From positions 1 to 39,714 of the forward strand of contig JAJPJJ010000051.1 of NCBI GenBank assembly GCA_021324295.1: a stretch of 39,714 nt of DNA, in the 5' to 3' direction. The DNA is from Bacillota bacterium. Its GTDB lineage: Bacteria; Sysuimicrobiota; Sysuimicrobiia; Sysuimicrobiales; Segetimicrobiaceae. Within the stretch, counting starts at the first letter, position 1, and every line of letters begins with the position of its first letter. Below the pieces are notes generated by a model. That model did not search any database. It was not told the DNA's origin and saw only the letters and a program-made list of their open reading frames with translations. A program made the translations under genes and the position numbers. Positions 11,978 to 37,713 of this stretch are shown here, piece by piece.

Positions 11978-14935
<2,958 letters not shown>

Positions 14936-15238: not shown

Positions 15239-17404
<2,166 letters not shown>

Positions 17405-17475
17405 GACGGGTCCCCTCTGCGGGTGCCGGGGCGCCCCCATCTGGCGGCACTCCCGGGCGAACATGCGATCACGTC

Positions 17476-20949: not shown

Positions 20950-21036
20950 GCCGGAGTGTCGGAATCGGCAGACGATGGCGACTCAAAATCGCCTGGGCTC
21001 ACGCCCGTGGGGGTTCGAGTCCCTCCTCCGGCACCA
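20950..21036 (+). tRNA. tRNA-Leu (anticodon CAA)
   Basis: GCCGGAG pairs with CTCCGGC, followed by A73 and an encoded CCA. The stem GGCGA/TCGCC holds the loop CTCAAAA, giving anticodon CAA. The long variable arm (TGGGCTCACGCCCGT region) marks it as class II. Length is 87 nt. It is divergent from polA. The 109 bp after it (21037-21145) hold nothing recognisable. Confidence 0.97.
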
Positions 21037-22516: not shown

Positions 22517-23236
22517 TCACGGGGCCACCGGGTGCGCGAGGCGCAGAACAGGGAGCGCCTGCACGGCCGGGATCGTCACCGTCTCCTGACGGGCGATCGT
22601 AATGCCCAAGCCGAGCGCGCGCAGGCCTTCGACCACCCCGCCGCGGATGCGCAGCGCCCTTTCCAGGGTCTGGGGGTCGCCGATCGCGGTCACGATGTAC
22701 GGGGGGAGGAGGCGACGCTGGCCGACGATGATCGTGCCGCCGACCTGGCTGAACCCGGTGGAGGCGATCACCCGGGTGTTGTTGACGGCGATCGCCTCGG
22801 CGCCGGCCGCCCACAGCTCATTGACGACGCTCGCCAGGTCGACGTACTGGACGACCGGCGGCGCCTGGCCGGCCACCGCGAGGGTGCCGTCGCGCAGGGA
22901 GACGGCGACGCCGGGACCGCCGAGCGACACCAGCCCGGCCGCGACCCGCAGGGCGGCCAGCTCGTGCCGCAAGGCCTGGTCTGTGCTCTTGCGCTGGGCG
23001 GCCGCCGTCTCGAACCCGGCGAGGCGCCGGCTGAGCTGGGCCACCTGGCCCTCGAGGTCCTGACGCGCCTCCCGCTCCTGCCGCAGCATCGTCGCGAGCG
23101 CGTACACGTTGCGCGTGGGGACGCCCTCCTGGGTCGAGAGGACGCGGCCGGCGCGGAACTGGACGACGAGCAGGAAGCCCAGCGCCATCAGCAGCACGGC
23201 GAAGAGCGCCTGCCACCAGGCGGCGCCGCCCGTCAC
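22517..23236 (-). CDS. DUF881 family membrane-anchored protein
   Basis: The 239-residue protein has one N-terminal membrane segment (about residues 7-27, ALFAVLLMALGFLLVV), then a heptad-rich coiled coil (about 45-95) and the DUF881 domain (GPGVAVSLRDG, VNELWAAGAEAIAVNNTRV, AIGDPQTLERAL). DUF881 proteins often sit near cell division or sporulation genes in Gram-positive bacteria; their function is not established. GTG 23236 is chosen because it overlaps the dnaE stop (GTGA); a GTG three codons upstream (23245) is possible. Confidence 0.85.
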   Translation of the reverse strand: MTGGAAWWQALFAVLLMALGFLLVVQFRAGRVLSTQEGVPTRNVYALATMLRQEREARQDLEGQVAQLSRRLAGFETAAAQRKSTDQALRHELAALRVAAGLVSLGGPGVAVSLRDGTLAVAGQAPPVVQYVDLASVVNELWAAGAEAIAVNNTRVIASTGFSQVGGTIIVGQRRLLPPYIVTAIGDPQTLERALRIRGGVVEGLRALGLGITIARQETVTIPAVQALPVLRLAHPVAP

Positions 23237-26200
23237 TCTTCCCACACGTTGCCCTCGCCGAAGAGGCGCTCCAGGTCTTGCGGGAGGCTCCCGCTGTCGA
23301 GGAGGGCGCCCGGGAGCGCGAACACGTACTCGGTGCCGTCGGCGGTGACGACGTGGGCACGGACCGGGCGGTCACCGGGGTGCTCGCGCACGTACCGCTC
23401 GAGCTGGTCGAGCTCCTCGACCGAGCTGACCCGGACGCGGAGCGCGGGACGCGCGGGCGGCCCGCTCCCCCGCGCCCCGTTGCCCCCGCTCGCGCGCGCC
23501 GCCGTCCCGTTGCGCGCGGCCGCAGGGCCCGGGCGCGCCGGCATCCCACTCGCCCGCGCGGGGGCCGGGGCCGCAGCCGCTGCCTCCTCCGGGGTCGGCG
23601 GCAGCGACAGGATCTCGTCGCAGAGGAGCTTGACGGATTGTTCCTCGATATCGACCCTCCCCCGCAGGAGGACCACAGCGTCCCGCTTGAGGGCGAAGCC
23701 CTGCTGCTCGTACGCCCGCGGGAACACGAGGACCTCCACGCTGCCGGTAAGGTCCTCCAGGGTGAGGAACGCCATCGTGGATCCCGACCGCGTCACGCTG
23801 CGCTTGACGCCCGCGACGAGTCCCCCCACCACGACCTCCTGGCGGTCCGGCAGGTCCGCGAGCTGCGCGACGGTCGAGGTCACCCGCCGGCTCAACACCG
23901 GCTCCCACCGCCGCAGCGGGTGATCGGAGATGTACAGGCCGAGCATCTCGCGCTCCATGGTGAGCAGCTCGTCGCGCGTGAACTCCGGGGCCGACCCCTC
24001 GGGCGGCGCCTCCACGGGCGCGCCGCCGAGGTCGAAGAGGCCCGTCTGGCCCTGGGCGCGATCCCGCTGGGCGCGCTGGGCGCGGTCCAGCGTGTCGTCG
24101 AGGGTCTGCAGCATCTGCGCGCGGGAGGCGCCGAGCGAATCCATCGCGCCGGCCTTGATGAGGCTGGCGATCACCCGCTGGTTGACCTGGCGCGTGTCCA
24201 CGCGCGCGCAGAAGTCCGCGAGGCTGCGGAACGGCCCCCCCGCCGCGCGCGCCGCGATGATCGCCTCCACGGCGCCCACGCCGACGTTGCGGATCGCCGC
24301 GAGGCCGAACCGGATCGCGTCCGCGGTCCGGTCCGGCGCCGTGGAGGCGACGGCGAACGACGCCGCGCTGGCGTTCACGTCGGGCGGGAGGATCCGGATC
24401 CCCATCCGGTGACACTCCGCGACGGCCTGCGCGACCTTGTCCATGTTGCCGGCGTCGCTGCTGAGCACCGCGGCCATGTACTCGGCGGGGTAGTGCGCCT
24501 TGAGGTAGGCGGTGTAGTAGGCGATGAGGCCGTAGCAGGCGGCGTGCGCGCGGTTGAAGCCGTACCGGGCGAACGGCTCGAACTGCTCGAAGATCTGATC
24601 CACGACCCGGGGCGGCACGCCGTTCTTACGGGCGCCGGCGACGAACTTTTCCCGCTGGGCGAGCAGCCGGTCCTTGATCTTCTTGCGGATCGCGTAGCAC
24701 AGGACGTCCGCCTCGGCGAGCGTGTACCCGGCGATCGCCTGCGCGACCGTCATGATGTCCTCTTGGTAGACCATCACCCCGTAGGTCTCCTTGAGGACCA
24801 GCTCCAGACGCGGGTGCAGGTAGGTGACGGGCTCCTGGCCGCGCTTGCGCCGGATGTAGGCCGGGATGTTGGCCATGGGGCCGGGCCGGAACAGCGCCAC
24901 CATCGCCATGACGTCCTCGATCCGGTCCGGCCGCAGCTCCTTGAGGTACCGCGTCATCCCGCGGCCTTCGAGCTGGAAGATCCCGGTCGTGTCGCCGGAC
25001 GCCAGCAGGTCGTAGGTCTTCCGGTCGTCCAGCGGAAGGCGCTGGAGATCGACGGTGACGCCGCGGGTCTCCCGGATGATCCTGATCGCGGTGTCGAGGA
25101 TCGTCAGGTTGGCGAGGCCGAGAAAGTCGATCTTGAGCAGCCCGAGCCGCGCGACGCTGTTCATGTCGTACTGGGTCATCAAGAGGTCGCCCTTCGTGGC
25201 TCGCTGCAGCGGGACGTGATCGGTCAGCGGATCGCGCGAGATGATCACGCCGGCGGCATGGGTGCTGGCGTGCCGGGCCACGCCCTCGAGCTTCTGGGCC
25301 ATGTCGAGGAGCCGGCGCACCTGCGGGTCGCCCTCGGCGGCCGCCCGCAGCTCCGGCTCCTGCTGGAGCGCCTCCCGCAGCGTGACCGTCGGACCGGGGA
25401 TCAGCTTGGCGATGCGGTCGACGTCCCCGTACGGCAGCCCCATCACCCGGCCGACGTCCCGGATCGCGGCGCGCGCGCCCATCGTCCCGAACGTGATGAT
25501 CTGGGCCACGCGGTCGGCGCCGTACTTCTCCACCACGTACTGGATGACCTCATCGCGCCGGCTGTCCATGAAGTCGACGTCGATGTCCGGCATCGTGTAC
25601 CGTTCGAGGTTGAGGAAGCGGTCGAACGGAAGGCGGTAGGCGATCGGGTCCACGTCCGTCACGCCGCACGCGTACAGGACCAGGCTCCCCGCGGCGGACC
25701 CGCGCACCGTCGTCAGGATGCCGCGCCGGCGCGCGAAGTTGACGAAGTCCTGCACGATCAGGAAGTACGGCGCGTACCCCATCTGGCCGATGACGCCGAG
25801 CTCGTAGTCGAGGCGCTCGGCCAGCGCGGGGGTGATCTGCCCGTAGAGGCGCCGCAGACCCCCTTCGCACAGCCGGCGGAGGTAGGAGTCGGCGGTCTCG
25901 CCGGGCGGCACGGGGAAGTGGGGCAGCTTGGTCCGGCCGGTCTCGATCCTCACATCGCACCGCTCGGCGATGTCGAGCGTGGCGCGCAGGGCCTCCGGCA
26001 GCTCCGCGAACCGCGCCGCCATCTCCTCCGGGCTCTTGAGGTAGAACTCGGGCGTATCGCCCATCCGGGGCTTGTCCTTCTGATCGAGGCCGATGCCCAT
26101 CTGGATGCACATCAGGGCATCCTGCGCGTCGGCCTCGTCGCGCGTGACGTAGTGCACGTCGTTCGTGGCGACAAGCGGCACGCCGAGCGCGCGCGCGAGC

Positions 26201-26778
26201 GGCACGAGGCCGCGCACGACGGCCTGCTGGTCCGCCAGGCCGTGATTCTGCACCTCCAGGTAGAAGTTGCCGGGCCCGAAGATATCCCGGTACGCGGCCG
26301 CGAGCTCGCGCGCCGCCTGGAAGTCCTCGCGCAGAATGGCCCGCGGGATCTCGCCCTGCAGGCACCCCGAGAGCCCGATGAGGCCCGCGGCGTGGCGGCT
26401 GAGGAGCTCGCGGTCGATCCGCGGCTTGTAGTAGAAGCCGTCGAGGTGCGCGGCCGTCGTGAGCTTGAGGAGGTTGCGGTACCCCTCGTCGGTGGCGGCG
26501 AGCAGCACGAGGTGGAACGCCGACGCATCCAGCTTGGGGTCCCTGTCCGTCATCCGCCGTGGGGCGACGTAGGCCTCCATGCCGATGATCGGCCGGATCC
26601 CGTGGGCCCGCGCGCTCTCGTAGAACTCGATCGCCCCGTACATCACGCCGTGATCGGTCAGGGCCAGGGCCGGGAGGCCCAGCGCGGCGGCCCGTTGCAT
26701 CAGGGCGTCGATCCGGCTCTCGCCATCGAGGAGGGAGTATTCGGTGTGCAGGTGACAGTGGACGAACTCAGGGGGCAT
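23233..26778 (-). CDS. dnaE: DNA polymerase III alpha subunit (DnaE) with intact PHP domain
   Basis: The replicative polymerase subunit, 1181 residues. The N-terminal PHP domain appears to retain nine metal ligands: H9, H11, D18, H43 (LTDHGVMYG), E68 (GMEAYV), H89, C139 (SGCLQG), D207 and H209 (TNDVHY), so it probably has its own 3'-5' exonuclease. The catalytic aspartates are in TMPDIDVDFMDSRRDE. HASTHAAGVIIS and FNRAHAACYGLIAYYTAYLKA are further family motifs. Near the C-terminus an OB fold follows (VVVGGLVAGVKRSVTRSGSTMAFLTLED is the region; about residues 985-1060). ATG 26778 follows GGAGGAG. It overlaps the DUF881 gene by 4 bp. Confidence 0.96.
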   Translation of the reverse strand: MPPEFVHCHLHTEYSLLDGESRIDALMQRAAALGLPALALTDHGVMYGAIEFYESARAHGIRPIIGMEAYVAPRRMTDRDPKLDASAFHLVLLAATDEGYRNLLKLTTAAHLDGFYYKPRIDRELLSRHAAGLIGLSGCLQGEIPRAILREDFQAARELAAAYRDIFGPGNFYLEVQNHGLADQQAVVRGLVPLARALGVPLVATNDVHYVTRDEADAQDALMCIQMGIGLDQKDKPRMGDTPEFYLKSPEEMAARFAELPEALRATLDIAERCDVRIETGRTKLPHFPVPPGETADSYLRRLCEGGLRRLYGQITPALAERLDYELGVIGQMGYAPYFLIVQDFVNFARRRGILTTVRGSAAGSLVLYACGVTDVDPIAYRLPFDRFLNLERYTMPDIDVDFMDSRRDEVIQYVVEKYGADRVAQIITFGTMGARAAIRDVGRVMGLPYGDVDRIAKLIPGPTVTLREALQQEPELRAAAEGDPQVRRLLDMAQKLEGVARHASTHAAGVIISRDPLTDHVPLQRATKGDLLMTQYDMNSVARLGLLKIDFLGLANLTILDTAIRIIRETRGVTVDLQRLPLDDRKTYDLLASGDTTGIFQLEGRGMTRYLKELRPDRIEDVMAMVALFRPGPMANIPAYIRRKRGQEPVTYLHPRLELVLKETYGVMVYQEDIMTVAQAIAGYTLAEADVLCYAIRKKIKDRLLAQREKFVAGARKNGVPPRVVDQIFEQFEPFARYGFNRAHAACYGLIAYYTAYLKAHYPAEYMAAVLSSDAGNMDKVAQAVAECHRMGIRILPPDVNASAASFAVASTAPDRTADAIRFGLAAIRNVGVGAVEAIIAARAAGGPFRSLADFCARVDTRQVNQRVIASLIKAGAMDSLGASRAQMLQTLDDTLDRAQRAQRDRAQGQTGLFDLGGAPVEAPPEGSAPEFTRDELLTMEREMLGLYISDHPLRRWEPVLSRRVTSTVAQLADLPDRQEVVVGGLVAGVKRSVTRSGSTMAFLTLEDLTGSVEVLVFPRAYEQQGFALKRDAVVLLRGRVDIEEQSVKLLCDEILSLPPTPEEAAAAAPAPARASGMPARPGPAAARNGTAARASGGNGARGSGPPARPALRVRVSSVEELDQLERYVREHPGDRPVRAHVVTADGTEYVFALPGALLDSGSLPQDLERLFGEGNVWEE

Positions 26779-26831: not shown

Positions 26832-28235
26832 TCACCCGGCGACCGCGGTCAGCAGCACCGCGAGCCGGCTGGTATGGGGGCTCGTGTCGATCGGCTGGAC
26901 GCGCGTGATCCGGAACTGCGATGCGGCCAGCGCCGCGGCGTCCCGGCGCACCGCGCCCAGCGCCTGGCCCAGGTAGACCACTCGCCTCACCCCGCTCAGC
27001 CGGAGCCGGTGCGGCAGCTCTCGCGGCAACCCCGCGCCGCCCGGGTGCAGAAACGCCAGCCGCACCGCGCCCCACCGGCGGGCGACCTTCTCGAGGGCCT
27101 TAGCGGGATCGCGCGTGTAGAAAGCGCAGTTCTCGATCCGGTTGAGCCGCGCGTTGTCCCGGGCCGCATCGATCCACTCGGCGTCGGTCACGCCCGCGAC
27201 ACGGCCGGCCGCCAGCGCGAGCTGCAGCGAGTAGGCGCCGATCCCAGCGCCGGGCTCGAGGATCGTATCGTCGCGGCTCGGGTCGAGCGCGGCGAGGACG
27301 AGCTCGACGATCCCGGGGAACGCGCGCGCGTTCGAGGGGAACTGGGCAAGCAGCGGCACATGGTAGCGCACGCCCGCCGCCTCGTCCCGCACGTAGGGCC
27401 GGCCCCAGAGGAGCCGGGCGCGGCGGCCGCCGAGCAGGTGGCTGCGCCGCGGGACGCGGACCTCCAGGATGCCGACGAGCCCGGGGACGCGGTCGAGCAG
27501 CGCGCGCACGACCACCGCGCGGCCCGCGATCCCGAGCGGCGCCGCAAGGCACAGGCCGAGCAGCACCTCTCCGGTCGCCGCGCCGGTCCGGGCGACGAGG
27601 CCCCGCAGGATTCCGTGTCCGGGGGCCCGGCCCAACGTCCGCCGGTGGGCGTCCTCGCTCGCCGCCGCCCCGGCGGCGGCGCCGGATGCAATCGCGGGCG
27701 CGAGCGAGCCGAGGGCGGCCCGGACCGCCGCGAGCGCCGCGAGGTTGCCGGGCTGCTGCACCGGGCACGCCCGCACATCGACGATCCGCTCGCCGCCCCA
27801 CGTGAAGAACCCCACGACCGGGCGTCCCTCGCGCATGCTCATCGCCGCCTCGAGCCGCGTGCGGAACTCCCAGGGCGGCTCCCAGCCGACCGCGGGATCC
27901 ACGGGCGTGCCCGCGAGGCCCGCCTGCTCGAGCGTGTCGCGGACGAGCCGCGTCTTCTCGTCGAGCTGCGCCCGGTAGTCGAGGTGCTGCCACTGGCAAC
28001 CGCCACACCGTCCGAAGTGCGGGCACGGCGGGCGCGTGAGGCGGGCCGAGCTGCTCCGCAGGGCCACGAGGCGGCCGCGGAGGCGGCCGGGCGCCACGTC
28101 GACGAGCCGGATCGTCGCCTCGTCTCCCGGAGCGGCGTACGGCACGGCCACGGTGCGCCCGTCGACCGTCGCGAGCGCCTCCCCGTCCGGGCCCATCCGG
28201 TCGAACCGGGCCACGAGCCGCGTGCCGACCACCAT
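26832..28235 (-). CDS. TrmA/RlmD-family protein lacking catalytic Cys (putative degenerate RNA uridine methyltransferase)
   Basis: The 467-residue protein has the architecture of class I SAM-dependent tRNA/rRNA m5U methyltransferases. It has an N-terminal TRAM OB fold (residues 1-60), Fe-S ligands C71-x5-C77-x2-C80 (in CPHFGRCGGC) and C157 (DVRACPV), a linker, and a Rossmann domain with SAM motif LEPGAGIGAYSLQLA (326-340) and the C-terminal SPHTSRLAVL. Two catalytic motifs are absent: DPPR-x-G is replaced by LHPGGAG (396-402), and the SCNP loop with the nucleophilic Cys is replaced by YLGQAL (421-426). Methyl transfer by the usual covalent mechanism is therefore unlikely. ATG 28235 fits the TRAM start; a frame from TTG 28433 adds a Pro/Arg-rich stretch. 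The 184-bp gap to gatB holds nothing else clear. Confidence 0.82.
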   Translation of the reverse strand: MVVGTRLVARFDRMGPDGEALATVDGRTVAVPYAAPGDEATIRLVDVAPGRLRGRLVALRSSSARLTRPPCPHFGRCGGCQWQHLDYRAQLDEKTRLVRDTLEQAGLAGTPVDPAVGWEPPWEFRTRLEAAMSMREGRPVVGFFTWGGERIVDVRACPVQQPGNLAALAAVRAALGSLAPAIASGAAAGAAASEDAHRRTLGRAPGHGILRGLVARTGAATGEVLLGLCLAAPLGIAGRAVVVRALLDRVPGLVGILEVRVPRRSHLLGGRRARLLWGRPYVRDEAAGVRYHVPLLAQFPSNARAFPGIVELVLAALDPSRDDTILEPGAGIGAYSLQLALAAGRVAGVTDAEWIDAARDNARLNRIENCAFYTRDPAKALEKVARRWGAVRLAFLHPGGAGLPRELPHRLRLSGVRRVVYLGQALGAVRRDAAALAASQFRITRVQPIDTSPHTSRLAVLLTAVAG

Positions 28236-28419: not shown

Positions 28420-29877
28420 TTATCCGGCCCCAAGTCGTTCTCGGAGGAGGCGGTTCACCAGGCCGGGGTTCGCCCGTCCCCGGGTCTTCTGCATCACCTG
28501 TCCCACCAGGAACGCGATGGCGCGACCCTTCCCGGCACGGACGTCCCCGGCCGCCGCCGGGTGGTCGGCGATCACCTCGTCGACCACCGCCCTGAGCTGC
28601 GCCTCGTCGCTGATCTGGACGAGGCCCCGCTCCCGCACGATCTCGCCGGCCCCCCGGCCGGTCCGGAGCATCTCCTCGAGCGCTTCCTTGGCCGACCGGC
28701 CGCTGAGGGTGCCGGCGTCGATCAGGGCCAGCAGCTCCGCCAGGGCCGCGGGCGCGAGCGGGGCCTCCTCGATCTCGAGGCCGGCGGCGTTCAGGTACGC
28801 GGCGACGTCGCCGAGGAGCCAGTTGCTCACGACCTTCGGCTGGGGGAAGTGGCGGACGGTCTCTTCGAAGAAATCCGCCATCGGCCGCGTCGCGGTCAGC
28901 AGCCCGGCGTCGTGCTCCGGGAGGCCGTAGGCCTCCACGTACCGGCGGCGCCGCGCCTCCGGCAGCTCGGGCAGGTCCGCGCGGATGCGCGCGATCCACG
29001 CCTCGTCGACGCGCAGCGGGACGAGGTCCGGTTCCGGGAAGTAGCGGTAATCCTGCGCCTCCTCCTTTTCGCGCGAGGCGAACGTGACCTGCCGGTGCTC
29101 GTCCCAGTGGCGGGTCTCCTGCACGACGGCCTCGCCGCGCGCGAGCAGCGCCGCCTGCCGCGCCTGCTCGAAGCGCAGCGCGCGCTCCACGGACCGCAGC
29201 GAGTTCATGTTCTTGACCTCGGTGCGGATGCCGTGGGCCGTGCCGGGGAGACGCAGCGAGAGGTTGGCGTCGCAGCGGAGCGTGCCCTCCTCCATCCGGC
29301 CGGTCGTCACGCCCGCGTACTGCAGGAGCACGCGCAGCCTGGCCAGGCACAGCCGGGCTTCCTCCGGCGACCGCAGGTCGGGCTCGGTCACCACTTCCAT
29401 GAGCGGCGTGCCGCAGCGGTTGTAGTCCACGAAGCTCCGTCCTTCGCCGTGCACGAGCTTGCCGGTGTCCTCCTCGAGGTGCACCCGGCGGATCCCGATC
29501 CGGTGGACCGTCTCGCCGACCTCGAAGACCAGCACGCCGGCGGTGGCGAGCGGCGGATGGTCCGCGTACTGGTACTGTGAGATCTGGTAGTTCTTCGGGA
29601 GGTCCGGGTAGTAGTAGTTCTTGCGGTGGAACTGGCTCTCGGGCTCGATTTGGCAGCCGAGGACGAGGGCGGCGCGGAGCCCGAGCTCGACGGCCCGGCG
29701 GTTGAGCACCGGCAGCGAGCCGGGGAGCCCCAGGCACACCGGGCAGGTCAGGGTATTGGGCGGCGCCGCGAACGCCACGGCGCAGCCGCAGAACATCTTC
29801 GTCGCGGTGCTGAGCTGGACGTGCACCTCGAGGCCGATGACGGTCTCGAATCTCGCCGCCGTGTCAGCGATCGTCAT
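28420..29877 (-). CDS. gatB: aspartyl/glutamyl-tRNA amidotransferase subunit B (GatB)
   Basis: The kinase subunit of GatCAB, which activates the side chain of Glu on Glu-tRNA(Gln), or Asp on Asp-tRNA(Asn), before amidation. The 485-residue protein opens with FETVIGLEVHVQL. Zinc-type cysteines are in MFCGCAV and CPVCLGLPG, and YYYPDLPKNYQISQY is a family signature. The C-terminal helical and tail domains (about residues 290-485, ending in MQKTRGRANP) bind tRNA. ATG 29877 has GGAG nearby. It is separated from gatA by 121 bp containing a strong hairpin. Confidence 0.96.
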   Translation of the reverse strand: MTIADTAARFETVIGLEVHVQLSTATKMFCGCAVAFAAPPNTLTCPVCLGLPGSLPVLNRRAVELGLRAALVLGCQIEPESQFHRKNYYYPDLPKNYQISQYQYADHPPLATAGVLVFEVGETVHRIGIRRVHLEEDTGKLVHGEGRSFVDYNRCGTPLMEVVTEPDLRSPEEARLCLARLRVLLQYAGVTTGRMEEGTLRCDANLSLRLPGTAHGIRTEVKNMNSLRSVERALRFEQARQAALLARGEAVVQETRHWDEHRQVTFASREKEEAQDYRYFPEPDLVPLRVDEAWIARIRADLPELPEARRRRYVEAYGLPEHDAGLLTATRPMADFFEETVRHFPQPKVVSNWLLGDVAAYLNAAGLEIEEAPLAPAALAELLALIDAGTLSGRSAKEALEEMLRTGRGAGEIVRERGLVQISDEAQLRAVVDEVIADHPAAAGDVRAGKGRAIAFLVGQVMQKTRGRANPGLVNRLLRERLGAG

Positions 29878-29998: not shown

Positions 29999-31474
29999 TC
30001 AGCGCGCCGCGGACGCCACGGGCGGGCGGGCCGCGTGGAAGTCGGTGGCCCGCTCGAGCGCGTACGCGATATTGAGCACCGTGCCTTCGTCGAACGGGCG
30101 CCCGATGACCTGCAGACCGACCGGAAGGCCGCCCGCGAACCCGCACGGGACGGAGATCCCGGGCACGCCCGCCAGGTTCACCGGCACCGTGAAGACGTCG
30201 GCCAGGTACATCTGCAGCGGGTCCTGCGTCCGCTCGCCGAGCCGGAACGCCGTGGTCGGCGCCACGGGGCCGAGCAGCGCGTCGAACTTCGCAAATGCCG
30301 CCTCGAAGTCGCGGCGGATCAGCGTTCGGACCCGCTGGGCGCGCAGGTAGAAGGCGTCGTAGTAGCCCGCGGACAGCGCGTACGTCCCCAGCATGATGCG
30401 CCGCTTCACCTCCGGGCCGAACCCCTCCCGGCGGGTGCGCGCGTACATCGTGTAGAGATCGTCCGCGCGGGCGGTGCGGTGCCCGTAGTGGACGCCGGCG
30501 TACCGGGCGAGGTTGCTGCTCGCCTCGGCGGGCGCGACGAGATAGTAGGCGGGAAGCGCGTACGGCGCGTGGGGCAGCGAGACCTCCTCGCAGACCGCGC
30601 CGAGGCCGCGCAGCGTCTGCACCGCCTCCCGCACGGCCGCGGCGACGCCGCCGTCCGTGCCCTCGGAGAGGAACTCGCGCACGATGCCCAACCGCAGCCC
30701 CTTGACCTCGCCCGCGAGCTGCTCGTCGTAGGGGGGGACCTCGATCTCCGCCGAGGTCGAGTCCGCGGGATCGCGGCCGGCGATGACCCGCAGCGCGAGC
30801 GCCGCGTCCCGCACGTCGCGGGCGAACGGCCCGATCTGGTCGAGCGAGGACGCGAACGCGATCAGGCCATAGCGGGACACCCGCCCATAGGTCGGCTTGA
30901 GGCCGACGACGCCGCAGAACGCCGCCGGCTCGCGGATGCTCCCGCCCGTATCGCTGCCGAGCGCGAGCGTCGCCTCCCCGGCGGCGACGGCGGCGGCCGA
31001 GCCCCCGCTGCTGCCGCCCGGCACCCGGTCCAGGTCCCACGGATTGCGGGTCGGGCCGAACGCCGAGTTCTCGGTGCTGCTGCCCATCGCGAACTCGTCG
31101 CAGTTCGTCTTCCCCACCAGGATCGCGCCGGCGCGGCGGAGGCGCGCGACGACCGTCGCGTCGTAGGGCGGCCGGAACCCGTCGAGGATCCGCGACCCGG
31201 CGGTGGTGGGCCACCCGCGCGTGCAGATGTTGTCCTTGAGCGCGACCGGGACGCCGGCCAGCGGCGGGGCATCCTCGCGGTGCGCGCGCGATTCCCACCG
31301 GGCCGCCTGCGCGACGACGGCGTCGGCGTCCCAGAAGAGGTAGGCGTGGATCCGATGCTCGAGCGCCTCGAGGCGGTCGAGCACCGCCCGGGCCGCCTCG
31401 CGCGGGGAGGCCGCTTTGCGGCGGTAGAGCGCGCGCAGCTCCCACGCGGGCCGGTCGGCGAGGGACGCGGGCAC
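29999..31474 (-). CDS. gatA: aspartyl/glutamyl-tRNA amidotransferase subunit A (GatA)
   Basis: The amidase subunit of GatCAB: it releases ammonia from Gln or Asn and passes it to GatB. The 491-residue protein has the Ser-cis-Ser-Lys triad at K80 (VALKDN), S155 (GGSSGGSA) and S179 (SDTGGSIRE). The substrate-binding region includes [23 protein letters not shown] 31474 follows AGGGA, and gatC ends 5 nt upstream. Together with GatB and GatC it implies that the organism makes Gln-tRNA and/or Asn-tRNA indirectly. Confidence 0.96.
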
Positions 31475-31807: not shown

Positions 31808-33583
31808 CTATCCCTTGTAGATCGTGTAGTAGTACTGGCCCGGAAAGATCGGGTTGTAGTACCATCCGTGCACCCAGGAGCGCATCGTGTAGTAGGTCAC
31901 GGGCTGGACGAGGAACAGGTACGGCACGTCGTTGTAGGCGATCATCGAGAGCTGGCGGTACAGCCCCTTGCGCTGCGCCGGGTCGGGCGTGCTGACCGCC
32001 TGCTCGATCAGCCGGTCGGCCTCCGGGTTCCGGTAGCCGCCGCGCACCGGGAAGTAGCCGTTGGCGGCCAGGAACGGCTGCGCGAAGTCGTGCGGGTCCG
32101 GGTAGTCGGCGAACCACCCGAGGAAGTACATCGTCCCCTTGTGGGCGAACAGCAGGCTGTTGAGGCTGCTCGCCGGGACCGGCCGCGCGTCGATCTGGAA
32201 CTTCGGGTTGAGCGCGCCCACCGAGTCCTTCACGATCTGGGCGCCGACCTGCCGCGCCGTGTTGCCGGCCGTAAACGGGATCGTGAACTTGAACCCCGTC
32301 GTCCAGACCCGGCCGCCGTGCGCCTCCTTGAACTCGGCGATCGCGCGGTCCCGGTTCGTCGTGTAGATCGGCACGCTCGCGTCGTACCCGAGCAGGCCCT
32401 GCGGGATCACCCCGTGCGGGCGGACTCCCTTCCCCGCGTACGCGCCGCTCAGGTTGGCGGCGTAGTCGAACGCGTAGGCAAATCCGCGCCGGACGTGGAT
32501 GTCGGCGAAGAAGTCCGGGGGGATCCCGTTCCCGTCGAGCTTGCCGCTCCCGACGTCCGGGTTGCCCTCGGTGTTGATCCGGTAGTTGAACTGCAGCGTC
32601 TGGAGGGCGATCTGCGGCAGGTTGTCCTGCATGACCGTCCCCGGGATGCCGCGCAGCTGCGACTGCTGGTTGAGCGACGCGACGATGAGGTCCGCGTCGC
32701 CCTGCTGGAGCTGCAGCCGCCGGGTCGCGAACTCGGAGACCGACCGGATCACGACGCGGGCGAGGCGCGCGGGCTTGCGCCAGTAGTTGTCGTTGCGGAC
32801 GAGCACGATCTGCTTGGCCTGCCGGTCCCACTCCTGCAGCTTGAACGGCCCGGTCCCGTCCATGTGATCGAACTGGTAGCGGTCCTCGGTCTTGGGGTTG
32901 TTGTACCGCTGCCACGTGGTGGGGCTCCCGTCCCAGTCGCCGTGCGCCGCCGCCCACTTCCGCGGCATCACGGCGGTCCAGGCGGCGACGATCGTCAGGA
33001 ACGGCGCGAACGGCTTCTTGAGCCGGAACACGACCGCGTTGCCCTGCGCGCTCACGGCCCGCGCCACGTCCGCCCACCGCACCTGGATCTTGCCGTGCTC
33101 GTCCCGCGTGCTGTCCACGCCGAGCAGCGGCGAGAGCAGCAGCCACGCCGGGCCGCCGGCCTGATCCTGCAGGAGGAACCGCCGGACGGAGTACACCACG
33201 TCGTCGACGGTCATCACGGACCCGTCGTGGAAGTGCACGCCCTGGCGGATCGGGAACGTGTAGGTCAGCCCGTCCCTGCTGATCAGGCCGTTCCGCAGGC
33301 TCGGCACCTGGGTCGCCAGCATCGGCTCGTAGCGGTCGAGCGCGGAGCCGGCGTACATGATCAGGGTCTCGTAGACGTTGGGCCAGATCGGCTCGTACGA
33401 GTAGATATCGTACGCGAGCGCCGGGTCGAGGCTGGAGACGTCACCGAACTGCAGCTCGACGAGCGTGTCCGGGTTCCGGACGGCCTCGGTGGCGCCGCGG
33501 GCCGTGACCGTGCCGAGCGAGGCGACGACGACCGCGGCCAGCGCGAGCGCAGCGACCCGATACCACCCCACGGCGGTCCTCAT
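31808..33583 (-). CDS. ABC transporter solute-binding protein family 5, copy 1
   Basis: The 591-residue oligopeptide/dipeptide-type receptor has a signal peptide (hydrophobic residues about 10-25, likely cut after ARGA). Family features: LVELQFGDVSSLDPALAYD at the mature N-terminus, YTFPIRQGVHFHDGS, MDGTGPFKLQEWDR, NDNYWRKPARL, and the C-terminal NDVPYLFLVQPVTYY. It is closely similar along its whole length to the copy at 35953-37713, including a 54-bp stretch of identical DNA. GGAGGGAGGAG precedes ATG 33583. It lies downstream of the permease genes after a 325-bp gap, so it may be a second receptor for the same channel. The ligand is unknown. Confidence 0.93.
   Translation of the reverse strand: MRTAVGWYRVAALALAAVVVASLGTVTARGATEAVRNPDTLVELQFGDVSSLDPALAYDIYSYEPIWPNVYETLIMYAGSALDRYEPMLATQVPSLRNGLISRDGLTYTFPIRQGVHFHDGSVMTVDDVVYSVRRFLLQDQAGGPAWLLLSPLLGVDSTRDEHGKIQVRWADVARAVSAQGNAVVFRLKKPFAPFLTIVAAWTAVMPRKWAAAHGDWDGSPTTWQRYNNPKTEDRYQFDHMDGTGPFKLQEWDRQAKQIVLVRNDNYWRKPARLARVVIRSVSEFATRRLQLQQGDADLIVASLNQQSQLRGIPGTVMQDNLPQIALQTLQFNYRINTEGNPDVGSGKLDGNGIPPDFFADIHVRRGFAYAFDYAANLSGAYAGKGVRPHGVIPQGLLGYDASVPIYTTNRDRAIAEFKEAHGGRVWTTGFKFTIPFTAGNTARQVGAQIVKDSVGALNPKFQIDARPVPASSLNSLLFAHKGTMYFLGWFADYPDPHDFAQPFLAANGYFPVRGGYRNPEADRLIEQAVSTPDPAQRKGLYRQLSMIAYNDVPYLFLVQPVTYYTMRSWVHGWYYNPIFPGQYYYTIYKG
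32891..32944. repeat. 54-bp identical segment shared by the two binding-protein genes, copy 1
   Basis: Identical base for base to 37036-37089, inside the paralogous coding regions (around YNNPK back to AHGDWDG). Identity at every third codon position suggests recent duplication or gene conversion. Nearby blocks (for example around 32760-32790 and 36905-36935) are almost identical too. Confidence 0.85.
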
Positions 33584-33908: not shown

Positions 33909-34874
33909 CTATCGGCTGCCCTGCAGGCGCGGGTCGAAGATGTCGCGGAACGCATCCCCCAGCAGGTTCCACCCCAGGACGAACAGGAAGATCGCGGCCC
34001 CCGGCACGACCAGCGTGTACCAGTACGTGAACGGGTCCCCGGCTGTCCCGGTGATCCAGTTGTGCGACAGGTTGATGAGCTGGCCCCAGTCGGCGTAGCC
34101 GGGCGGCACGCCCAGCCCCAGGAACGAGAGCGCGGCGAACGTGATCACGATGTTGCCCATGTTGAGCGAGGCCAGGATCAGGATCGGGTAGACGGTGTTG
34201 GGGATCACGTGGCGGAGGATGACCCAGAAGTCCCCGGCGCCCAGCGCGCGGGCGGCCTGGACGTACTCCATGTCCCGCACGCGCAGGAACTCGCCCCGCA
34301 GGAGGCGCGTGTAGGTGGGCCACTCGACCGCCGCGATCGCGATCACGAGGTTGCGCACGCTCGGGCCGAGCACGGCGACGATGACGACCGCCAGGATCAG
34401 CCCGGGGAACGCGAGGACGATGTCGGTGACCCGCATCACGATCTCGTCCACGCGGCCGCCGTAGTACCCGCTCAGGCTGCCCAGGACGAGCGCGATCGCC
34501 ACCGCCGTCGCGATGACGGTGAGCGCCACGACGAACGCGGTCCGCGCCCCCCAGATGACGCCGTAGTAGAGATCGAACTGCTGCTCGGTCGTCCCGAGCG
34601 GGTGCCCCGGCCCGGGCGGCCGGGGGTCGCTCGCGTACCCGGAGTGGGGGATCAGGTACGGGTTCCTCTCGGTCGGGTGCGCGAGGACCGGTGCCAGGAC
34701 CGCGAGCGCGACGAAGAACAGGATGATCGCGGCCCCGAGCACGGAGAGCGGGTTGCGCTGGAAGCGCCGGACCGTCCGGTGCCACGGCCGCTCCCCCGCG
34801 CGCGGGCGCACCGGCGAGCCGGGCAGCGGGAGCGCAGGGGTGGCGGGCGAGGGGGGGGTGCGGACCGCGCTCAT
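33909..34874 (-). CDS. oligopeptide-type ABC permease (DppC/OppC-like)
   Basis: The 321-residue membrane subunit has a Pro-rich cytoplasmic N-terminus (residues 1-30), the OppC-type opening RTVRRFQRNPLSVLGAAI (34-51 region) and about six membrane segments. The EAA loop, YVQAARALGAGDFWVILRHVIPN, contacts the ATPases. ATG 34874 overlaps the DppB-like stop (ATGA). The C-terminus, GWNLLGDAFRDIFDPRL, is typical of the family. Confidence 0.94.
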   Translation of the reverse strand: MSAVRTPPSPATPALPLPGSPVRPRAGERPWHRTVRRFQRNPLSVLGAAIILFFVALAVLAPVLAHPTERNPYLIPHSGYASDPRPPGPGHPLGTTEQQFDLYYGVIWGARTAFVVALTVIATAVAIALVLGSLSGYYGGRVDEIVMRVTDIVLAFPGLILAVVIVAVLGPSVRNLVIAIAAVEWPTYTRLLRGEFLRVRDMEYVQAARALGAGDFWVILRHVIPNTVYPILILASLNMGNIVITFAALSFLGLGVPPGYADWGQLINLSHNWITGTAGDPFTYWYTLVVPGAAIFLFVLGWNLLGDAFRDIFDPRLQGSR

Positions 34875-35896
34875 TGCAGCCGGATCCGGGGATCGACGAC
34901 GGCGTAGAGGACGTCCGCGCAGAGGTTCCCCAGGACGAGCAGGCCGGCGAAGATGAGCGCGAACCCCGTGACCGCCGGGATGTCGAGCTGCTGGCTCGCC
35001 CCCACGCCCCAGCGGCCGATCCCCGGATAGTTGAAGACGCTCTCCGTGATCACGACCCCGCTGAGCAGGCCGATGAACAGCAGGCTCGCCAGCGTGATCA
35101 CCGGGATGAGGGCGTTGCGGCGCGCGTGCCGGTCCACGACGATGCGCCGGGGGAGGCCCTTGGCCTGGGCGGTGCGCACGTAGTCCGCCCGCAGCGTCTC
35201 CAGCATCGAGGAGCGTGTGATCCGCACCAGGACCGCGACGAGGTAGTACGTGAGGGTCGCGACCGGGAGCACGAGATGCCGGACCGCGTCCCAGAAGATC
35301 CACCCCTGCCCGTTTAGCAGGGCATCGACGGTCATGAGGCCGGTGTACACGTGGAACTTCCCGCTGCGCACGTACAGGTCCGCGTCGAGCGAGAGCCGCC
35401 CCGGCGGGAACCATCCGAAGTGCCCGTAGAACACCATCAGCAGCAGGAGCGCCCACACGAACGTCGGCAGCGACGCGCCGCTGATCGACGTGACGCGGCT
35501 CAGGTGGTCGATGAGCTTGTCCTTGTTGACCGCCGAGGCCGTGCCGAGCCAGATCCCGAGCGCCAGGATGCACAGGAACGCGTACATCGCGAGCTCGAGC
35601 GTGGCCGGGAAGAAGCCGCGGATCGCATCCGCGACCGGCTCCCGCGCGGTCTCGCTCCACCCGAGGTCGCCGTGCAGGACCTGGCGCAGCCAGTCCCCGT
35701 ACTGCACGTACACCGGCTGGTCGAGGTGGTACTTCCGGATGATGTCGGGCAGCGCGTTGAGCTGCTTGGGGTCGGTGATGTAGAGGCTGGCCCGCATCGC
35801 GGGCGTCAGGAACTGCAGCAGCGCGAAGATGAGGGCCGTGACGCCCAGGGCAACGAGCGGGAGCAGCAGGAGTCGTCGGACGATGAAGGCGATCAT
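34871..35896 (-). CDS. oligopeptide-type ABC permease (DppB/OppB-like)
   Basis: The 341-residue membrane subunit opens with MIAFIVRRLLLLPLVALGV, typical of DppB, and has about six membrane segments. The EAA loop is visible in DYVRTAQAKGLPRRIVV, and VVITESVFNYPGIGRW is a family motif. ATG 35896 is chosen over an in-frame upstream codon at 36022 that would run through the binding-protein gene. The ribosome site is weak and lies against a very stable hairpin, which may limit its translation relative to the binding protein. Confidence 0.94.
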   Translation of the reverse strand: MIAFIVRRLLLLPLVALGVTALIFALLQFLTPAMRASLYITDPKQLNALPDIIRKYHLDQPVYVQYGDWLRQVLHGDLGWSETAREPVADAIRGFFPATLELAMYAFLCILALGIWLGTASAVNKDKLIDHLSRVTSISGASLPTFVWALLLLMVFYGHFGWFPPGRLSLDADLYVRSGKFHVYTGLMTVDALLNGQGWIFWDAVRHLVLPVATLTYYLVAVLVRITRSSMLETLRADYVRTAQAKGLPRRIVVDRHARRNALIPVITLASLLFIGLLSGVVITESVFNYPGIGRWGVGASQQLDIPAVTGFALIFAGLLVLGNLCADVLYAVVDPRIRLQ

Positions 35897-35903
35897 GGTC
35901 GCC

Positions 35904-35938
35904 GCGGGCCGGCCCGTCCCGGGGACGGGCCGGCCCGC
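35904..35938 (-). other. 16-bp perfect hairpin between binding protein and permease genes
   Basis: GCGGGCCGGCCCGTCC and GGACGGGCCGGCCCGC around a 3-nt loop, filling most of the 56-bp gap. It begins 14 nt after the binding-protein stop and ends 7 nt before the DppB-like ATG. No T tract follows. Such hairpins typically stabilise the upstream message and let more receptor than permease be made. Confidence 0.8.
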
Positions 35939-35952
35939 CGCTACAGGGTTCG

Positions 35953-37713
35953 CTACTCCTTGTACAGCGGGTAGTAGTTGGCGCCGCCGAACACCGGGTT
36001 GTAGTACCAGCCGTGCACCCACGACCGCATGACCACGAACCCGACGGGCTGCGCCACGTAGAGCTGCGGCACGTCCTGGTAGGCGATCCGGGTGAGCTGC
36101 TTGTAGATCGCCGCTCGCTTGGCCGGATCCACCGTCGTGGCGCCCTCCCTGACGAGCCGGTCCGCCTCGGCGTTATGATAGCTGTTCCGCTTCGGGTAGT
36201 CGCCGTTCGACGCCAGGAACGGCTGCGCGAAGTCGTCCGGGTCGGGGTAATCGACCGCCCACCCGAGCGCGTACAGCGTGCCCTTGTGCGCGTTGGTCGT
36301 CTGCAGGAACTGCGACCACTGCATGTTCCGGATATCCAGCTTGAACTTGGGGTTCAGCGACTCGACGACGTCCTTGAGGATCTGGGCGCCGATCTGCCGC
36401 ACCGTGTTGCCCGTGTTGTAGGTCAGGGTGAACTTGAACCCCGTGTCCCACACCTTGCCGCCCCACGCCTCCTTGAACTCGGCGATCGCCTTGTTCCGGT
36501 CGAACGTGTACCGGGGCGCGCTCGGGTCGTAGCCGAGGAGGCCCTGGATGATCGGCCCGTTGGGCTGGACCGCCTTGCCGCGGTACGCGTCCCGGATGAA
36601 CGTCCCGTAGTCGAAGGCGTACGCGAACGCCCGGCGCACGTGGACGTCGCTGAAGAAGTCCGGCGGGATCCCGTTGCCGTCGAGCTTCCCGCTCCCGACG
36701 TCCGGGTTCCCGGTCGCGTCGATCTTGAAGTTGAAGTGGAGGGCCTGGAGGACGAGCTGCGGGAGGTCGTCGTGGATCGTGACGCCGGCCATCCCCTGCA
36801 CCTGGCTCTGCTCGGGACGATTGACGTCGATCAGGTCCGCGTCGCCCTGCTGGAGCTGCAGCCGCCGCGTGCCGAACTCCTGCACCGTCCGGATCACGAC
36901 GCGCGCGAGGCGCGCGGGCTTGCGCCAGTAGTTGTCGCTGCGGACGAGGATGACCTGCTTGGCCTGCCGGTCCCAGGTCTGGAGCTTGAACGGCCCGGTC
37001 CCGTCCATGTGGTCGAAAGCGTACCGGTCCTGCAGCTTGGGGTTGTTGTACCGCTGCCACGTGGTGGGGCTCCCGTCCCAGTCGCCGTGGGAGGCGGCCC
37101 ACGCTTTCGGCATCACGAACGAGAAGCCGGCGATGATGCTGAGGAACGCGCCGTACGGGTGCGCGAGGTGGAACACGACGTTGTCGCCCTGGACCGTCAC
37201 GGCCTTGGCGACATCCTGGTAGGTCACCTGGAACTTCCCGTCGCCGGCCCGCGTGCTGTCCTTGCCGGTGAGCGGCGTGAGGAGCAGCCAGGAGGGACCG
37301 CCGTCGCGGTCCTGCAGCATGAAGCGCAGCATCGAGTACCGCACGTCCTCGGGGGTCATCGTGGAGCCGTCGTGGAACTTGACGCCCTTGCGGATCGGAA
37401 ACGTGTAGGTCAGGCCGTCCTTGCTGACCAGGCCGTTCTGCAGGCTCGGCACCTGGGTCGCCAGCAGCGGCACGTACCGGGACAGCACGGAGCCGTCGAA
37501 CGTGATCAGGGTCTCGTAGACGTTGGGGTAGATGATCTCCGCGCTCGCCGTATCGTACGCGTACGCCGGGTCCAGGCTTTCCGGATCGCCGAAGCGCAGC
37601 GTCACGAACGTGTCCGGGTTCTTGACCGGCGCACCCGCTCCTCGCGCTCCGGTCCCCAGGGTCAGGACCGCGAGCACCAACACCACCGTGCACGCGAGCA
37701 CGCGCTGTTTCAC
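35953..37713 (-). CDS. ABC transporter solute-binding protein family 5, copy 2
   Basis: The 586-residue receptor of the DppBC/OppDF-like importer. The signal peptide spans about residues 1-26 (KQR, then a hydrophobic run, ending ARGAG). Family motifs: TLRFGDPESLDPAYAYD, YTFPIRKGVKFHDGS, MDGTGPFKLQTWDR, SDNYWRKPARL and QDVPQLYVAQPVGF near the end. The GTG start at 37713 is supported by a long Shine-Dalgarno match, AGGAGGGGTGA. It is paralogous to copy 1 throughout. It is followed by a 16-bp hairpin and then the permeases, the usual order for such operons. Confidence 0.94.
   Translation of the reverse strand: MKQRVLACTVVLVLAVLTLGTGARGAGAPVKNPDTFVTLRFGDPESLDPAYAYDTASAEIIYPNVYETLITFDGSVLSRYVPLLATQVPSLQNGLVSKDGLTYTFPIRKGVKFHDGSTMTPEDVRYSMLRFMLQDRDGGPSWLLLTPLTGKDSTRAGDGKFQVTYQDVAKAVTVQGDNVVFHLAHPYGAFLSIIAGFSFVMPKAWAASHGDWDGSPTTWQRYNNPKLQDRYAFDHMDGTGPFKLQTWDRQAKQVILVRSDNYWRKPARLARVVIRTVQEFGTRRLQLQQGDADLIDVNRPEQSQVQGMAGVTIHDDLPQLVLQALHFNFKIDATGNPDVGSGKLDGNGIPPDFFSDVHVRRAFAYAFDYGTFIRDAYRGKAVQPNGPIIQGLLGYDPSAPRYTFDRNKAIAEFKEAWGGKVWDTGFKFTLTYNTGNTVRQIGAQILKDVVESLNPKFKLDIRNMQWSQFLQTTNAHKGTLYALGWAVDYPDPDDFAQPFLASNGDYPKRNSYHNAEADRLVREGATTVDPAKRAAIYKQLTRIAYQDVPQLYVAQPVGFVVMRSWVHGWYYNPVFGGANYYPLYKE
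37036..37089. repeat. 54-bp identical segment shared by the two binding-protein genes, copy 2
   Basis: Partner of 32891-32944. The two form direct repeats about 4.1 kb apart that bracket the DppB- and DppC-like permease genes. Confidence 0.85.

Follow-up and report, generated by a model that had tools for sequence, protein, structure and literature searches.

What does a homologue of an RNA methyltransferase do once its active site has changed beyond recognition? The window analysed here, a stretch of 39,714 nucleotides, comes from the candidate phylum Sysuimicrobiota (CSP1-3), for which a single class with a single order has been described (PMC11604079), and it holds a gene of the TrmA/RlmD family of RNA m5U methyltransferases, hereafter gene X. 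The initial annotation had read it as a long, undamaged frame that keeps its Fe-S cysteines, a TRAM domain, a SAM-binding loop and a C-terminal SPHT, but lacks the catalytic Cys and the DPPR motif, and had proposed either an RNA-binding protein or a methyltransferase with a different mechanism.

An RlmD-like protein and its former active site

The frame is as first described: gene X opens with ATG and runs for 467 residues with no internal stop, and a promoter and terminator scan around it found nothing. Its product matches Escherichia coli RumA (RlmD) with an E value of 1.9e-31, and both RumA and RlmCD align over its full length. It scores 197 bits against the NCBIfam model TIGR00479 (RlmD), above the curated cut-off of 183.55, so that the protein would be misnamed RlmD; a Pfam search finds no match in it to PF05958 (tRNA_U5-meth_tr), a model that three canonical copies from the host phylum match with 77-94 bits. 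An AlphaFold2 model, built from an alignment of the gene X protein with related proteins, reached a pLDDT of 91.8 and a pTM of 0.90, and Foldseek identified RlmCD as its best fold match (TM 0.88/0.91), with RumA at 0.80/0.89 and the TrmA structure 3bt7 at 0.62/0.77. Sequence similarity, TIGR00479 and TM-scores of 0.80-0.88 place the protein in the TrmA/RlmD family as a homologue, and the high scores to RlmCD and RumA indicate that the family fold has been kept without the active site. Although that fold is recovered, the model has no Cys at the catalytic position; a structural check for a hidden one thus leaves the altered motifs standing.

Residues were mapped through the alignment of gene X with RumA, whose Q265, F294, E315 and D363 we take to be SAM-binding. 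Counts in the following list refer to 22 orthologues, largely from draft genomes, from families f1, f2, f3, f4 and f6 of one candidate phylum, probably this one, to three relocated copies from one genus (below), and to a comparison set of 64 canonical relatives.

26832..28235, minus strand: gene X, RlmD/TrmA-family paralogue, predicted to be catalytically dead; 467 aa, stop codon included
28065..28229, minus strand: TRAM domain, residues 3-57; Pfam PF01938, 28.9 bits (cut-off 21)
27996..28025, minus strand: Fe-S ligands C71, C77 and C80 in CPHFGRCGGC; kept in 22/22 orthologues and 3/3 relocated copies
27765..27767, minus strand: fourth Fe-S ligand C157; kept in 22/22 orthologues and 3/3 relocated copies
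27336..27338, minus strand: P300 in place of Gln (RumA Q265); Pro in 19/22 orthologues, Gln in 64/64 canonical relatives
27231..27260, minus strand: SAM motif I remnant LEPGAGIGAY, residues 326-335 (canonical LDLYCGVGTF)
27111..27113, minus strand: R375, a new invariant of the gene X clade; Arg in 22/22 orthologues and 3/3 relocated copies, Gly in 56/64 canonical relatives
27030..27047, minus strand: HPGGAG (397-402), replacing DPPRxG in the RumA alignment
26958..26969, minus strand: GQAL (423-426), replacing the catalytic SCNP; Cys in 0/22 orthologues, 64/64 canonical relatives
26859..26861, minus strand: A459, replacing the general-base Glu (RumA E424); Glu in 0/22 orthologues, 64/64 canonical relatives

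The alignment bears out the four proposed Fe-S cysteines, with C71, C77, C80 and C157 falling on RumA C81, C87, C90 and its fourth ligand, and P453 and T455 of the C-terminal SPHT are kept. The Fe-S ligands and general-base Glu of RumA have been described (PMC5614603), and the family mechanism combines a nucleophilic Cys with a proton-extracting Glu (PMC7237155). In gene X the nucleophile, RumA C389, has become Q424, and RumA D363, E315 and F294 have become H397, T350 and G329; with P300 and A459, all six scored catalytic and SAM-binding positions are lost. Of what marks an RlmD enzyme, gene X thus has, at the level of sequence, the TRAM domain and the four Fe-S cysteines, and has neither the Cys nucleophile, nor the general-base Glu, nor any of the SAM-binding residues (0/4). 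The reported SAM-binding loop stands only in part: a remnant, EPGAGIG, is there, but the SAM contacts are gone and sister families lose the loop (DAACEDG, DLTAATP). Because the SAM-binding positions have been lost together with nucleophile and base, m5U methylation by the known mechanism is very unlikely, and the enzyme appears almost certainly dead.

Conservation, selection and descent

The losses are shared. Equivalents of RumA Cys389, Glu424, Asp363 and Gln265 are each absent from 22/22 orthologues; of the six scored positions, none is kept in 20/22 and one in 2/22, against all six in 62/64 canonical relatives and five in 2/64. R125, G142, R211 and G278 are invariant across both sets alike. 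At former functional positions, the orthologues have near-invariants of their own, with R375 in 22/22, G400 and L426 each in 21/22 and P300 in 19/22; residue 424 is Arg or His in 20/22 and residue 459 is His in 15/22, and SAM motif I is not conserved among them. These new near-invariants argue for a new constrained role over drift. In a contig scan for the family with 80 matches listed, the motif-less loci (L065-L068 and L090) are all matched to contigs of the host phylum and the others have canonical motifs; of these others, 30/30 placed in the alignment among the matches listed keep the catalytic Cys, some of them without a literal SCNP.

The purifying selection that the initial annotation had suggested looking for is evident. 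Nei-Gojobori dN/dS was 0.12-0.33 for nine pairs of gene X orthologues, similar to the 0.18-0.23 of the canonical paralogue (eight pairs from the same genomes). Pooled by domain, gene X gave 0.22 from TRAM to Fe-S, 0.22 in the central domain and 0.24 in what was the methyltransferase domain, against 0.22, 0.24 and 0.21 for the same domains of the canonical copies; since these are alike, the former catalytic domain is about as constrained as the active one.

The conservation is also ancient. Gene X proteins form one group (100% SH-aLRT) on a long branch, separate from all canonical sequences; a grouping of the phylum's gene X and canonical copies as one is not rejected (AU p 0.22), and the gene may have arisen by a split within the phylum or by an older one, both being compatible with the tree. 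Its family groups agree with the gatB tree, consistent with vertical descent. Gene X was not found in the assemblies of families f5 and f7, which form one clade by gatB, showing that members of the phylum can do without it; the absence may reflect loss or ancestral absence, depending on the root. A candidate copy in f7 (G042:C46) proved to be the end of that genome's canonical copy, overlapping the sequence on C126 by 146 bp at 99.3%, and leaving f7 without gene X in its assembly, and the gap between gatB and dnaE in f5, where a copy might have lain hidden, carries a class III aminotransferase-like gene (three genomes, by eye). In genus g2 the copies (L202, L203 and L204) lie away from the gat locus at one common location; they keep the four cysteines, are strongly diverged and have evolved much faster (branch of 1.7 changes per column), and their neighbours (HD-domain, MFS, TPR-HTH, fumarase and CoA-transferase genes) offer no functional hint.

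Gene neighbourhood and the canonical paralogue

Three genes frame the locus:

29999..31474, minus strand: gatA, first codon provisional; named from sequence, with a homologue beside gatB in relatives (62-79% identical)
28420..29877, minus strand: gatB, directly upstream of gene X; Pfam GatB_N and GatB_Yqey
23233..26778, minus strand: dnaE, downstream of gene X; Pfam PHP, DNA_pol3_alpha, finger and HHH_6

The order gatA-gatB-X recurs in f1, f2, f3, f4 and f6, all five families that hold gene X, one genus being the exception. In most relatives dnaE lies 3' of gene X on the same strand, in some cases with 1.5 to 2.6 kb between the two. Several contigs break off before dnaE could appear, and in one genome (G003) none was found in the 9.8 kb downstream of gene X. 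Among the matches listed, several Bacillota carry canonical rlmCD 2-3 kb downstream of gatB, so the position of gene X may be inherited synteny rather than a functional link. Among genomes that keep gene X, most of those in f2 and several in f4 have GlnRS, which is absent from f5, a family without gene X; AsnRS is widespread. GlnRS, AsnRS and GatCAB occur together in several f2 and f4 genomes; GatCAB looks redundant there, yet is retained.

Elsewhere in the window, genes for two SBP_bac_5 peptide-binding proteins (31808-33583 and 35953-37713) flank two permease genes (34871-36022, and one within 33909-35660), and homologues of these genes lie near gatA in many relatives. The gene after dnaE (22517-23245) is DUF881-like by eye and kept in the operon across families; Pfam gave no match on its scanned part (22820-23245). 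By their Pfam domains, uvrA and uvrB occupy 11978-14935 and 15239-17464 on the minus strand, and tRNA genes for Leu(taa), Cys(gca), Gly(gcc) and Leu(caa) lie at 736-1034 and 20950-21036.

A second, canonical TrmA/RlmD paralogue, which the initial annotation had proposed seeking, does exist in the host genome. It lies on another contig (G000:C40:11979-13274), unlinked to gene X, has the motifs FFQTN, DLYCGVGTF, LDPPR, SCNP and HVE intact, and is the only PF05958 match in the genome. Most genomes bearing gene X likewise carry one canonical copy. A search for TrmFO across 43 genomes of the class found none, and each of these genomes has at most one active TrmA/RlmD-family enzyme, an observation that puts the source of tRNA m5U54 in question. 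In genus g8 no canonical copy was found, either in G005 (97% complete), which has gene X, or in G004 (89%); this may be real or an assembly gap, and if the absence is true the genus may make no m5U through the TrmA/RlmD family.

Catalysis-independent roles and their rivals

Comparison with characterized relatives defines what gene X has kept. With E. coli RlmD (23S rRNA m5U1939) it shares the TRAM, central and Rossmann domains, the Fe-S ligands and the fold, and differs in having no nucleophile, general base, SAM residues or PF05958 match; of Streptococcus pneumoniae RlmCD (m5U747/m5U1939), which is active without an Fe-S cluster (PMC5614603), it is the mirror image as far as its residues tell. 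E. coli TrmA (tRNA m5U54), with which it shares the family-level fold, is an active enzyme, whereas gene X has TRAM and Fe-S ligands and no active site. Roles beyond chemistry have precedents in the family: TrmA is a tRNA chaperone, an RNA role independent of catalysis (PMC11301382), a tRNA mutant is rescued by yeast Trm2 even when that enzyme is catalytically inactive, and for bovine TRMT2B, in which the catalytic Cys is changed to Tyr in an otherwise conserved protein, a function purely as a tRNA chaperone has been suggested (PMC7237155). The TRMT2B change, reported with a conserved SAM site and mostly in one mammalian subfamily (PMC7237155), differs from gene X, which loses active-site and SAM residues across five bacterial families. 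We found no report of a dead RlmD paralogue in bacteria in the open-access literature. The family is known and this kind of pseudoenzyme has a eukaryotic precedent; what sets gene X apart is the loss of the whole active site, the new invariants and the retention across most families of a phylum.

That the TRAM domain, the Fe-S ligands and the central domain have all been retained suggests that the gene X protein binds RNA. With the active site lost but the Fe-S residues and RNA-binding fold kept, it probably holds RNA rather than methylates it, and, given the precedents of TrmA chaperone activity and the TRMT2B suggestion, a non-catalytic RNA role seems most likely. The RNA-binding option first proposed therefore fits the kept domains well, while the binding itself, like assembly of an Fe-S cluster, the RNA target and a chaperone role, is something we infer. 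We give roughly even chances to gene X being a pseudo-methyltransferase that persists as an RNA-binding Fe-S protein, whose role is probably that of an RNA chaperone or of an assembly factor. A paralogue of a 23S rRNA m5U methyltransferase of the RlmD/RlmCD type would have lost both SAM binding and catalysis prior to the divergence of the families that hold gene X, and selection would have kept its Fe-S-stabilised RNA-binding body; the protein would then most likely bind, and remodel or hold, an RNA element, perhaps 23S rRNA near the RlmD/RlmC sites or the tRNA elbow, with methylation presumably done by the separate canonical paralogue.

The strongest rival is a partner role for that paralogue, in which gene X would pair with the one canonical RlmD-like enzyme or lend it specificity for RNA, much as the inactive METTL14 and TRMT6 serve active partners. 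Most gene X genomes do carry one canonical copy, the sole PF05958 protein of the host, and with no TrmFO found in the 43 genomes, this single enzyme may need to act on more than one RNA. The canonical copy nevertheless occurs without gene X in f5 and f7, G005 has gene X with no canonical copy found there or in its sister G004, the two genes are unlinked in the host, and RlmD and RlmCD work as single chains; we regard a partner role as unlikely. Its place after gatB would instead be explained if gene X served GatCAB as the tRNA-binding scaffold of a tRNA-dependent amidotransferase (a transamidosome), as the gatA-gatB-X order in five families might imply. Such a role is distinctly improbable, being disfavoured by the distribution of GlnRS and AsnRS and by the absence of gene X from f5 and f7: these two families have GatCAB and no GlnRS, yet do without gene X, and it is still kept in f2 and f4, where GlnRS occurs in most f2 genomes and in several of f4, and AsnRS in most. 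In one genus, moreover, it lies away from gatB, and since several Bacillota have rlmCD close to gatB, inherited synteny may account for the linkage.

The newly conserved residues in and around the former active site (R375, G400, L426 and positions 424 and 459) could also be read as signs of an active enzyme with different chemistry, or of residual SAM binding for regulation. We consider this very doubtful, and the methyltransferase with a different mechanism first envisaged unlikely, because the SAM residues have gone as well as the nucleophile, and motif I varies among orthologues; the lost acid and thiol have no conserved replacement. Slow decay of a paralogue, or an assembly error, would accommodate the drift of the active-site sequence and the long relocated g2 branch. 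The 22 intact orthologues, dN/dS near 0.2 in every domain, the high-confidence fold and Fe-S cysteines invariant even in relocated copies rule out a sequencing error or pseudogene and leave decay a negligible chance. Returning to the retained RNA-binding protein, we can only tentatively entertain a stronger form, in which this lineage might have converted an RNA methyltransferase of the Fe-S type into a dedicated RNA-binding protein without enzymatic activity, an Fe-S-dependent and possibly redox-responsive factor of tRNA or ribosome maturation whose former SAM pocket carries newly conserved residues.

The functional role of the RlmD Fe-S cluster has been called unclear, RlmCD methylating without one (PMC5614603); in gene X, where the chemistry is lost and the cluster ligands are absolutely conserved, cluster function becomes separable from catalysis for study. 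Automatic annotation of such proteins as active RlmD would mislead inventories of rRNA modification. Gene X offers a natural case, spanning most of one phylum, for catalysis-independent roles of RNA-modifying enzymes.
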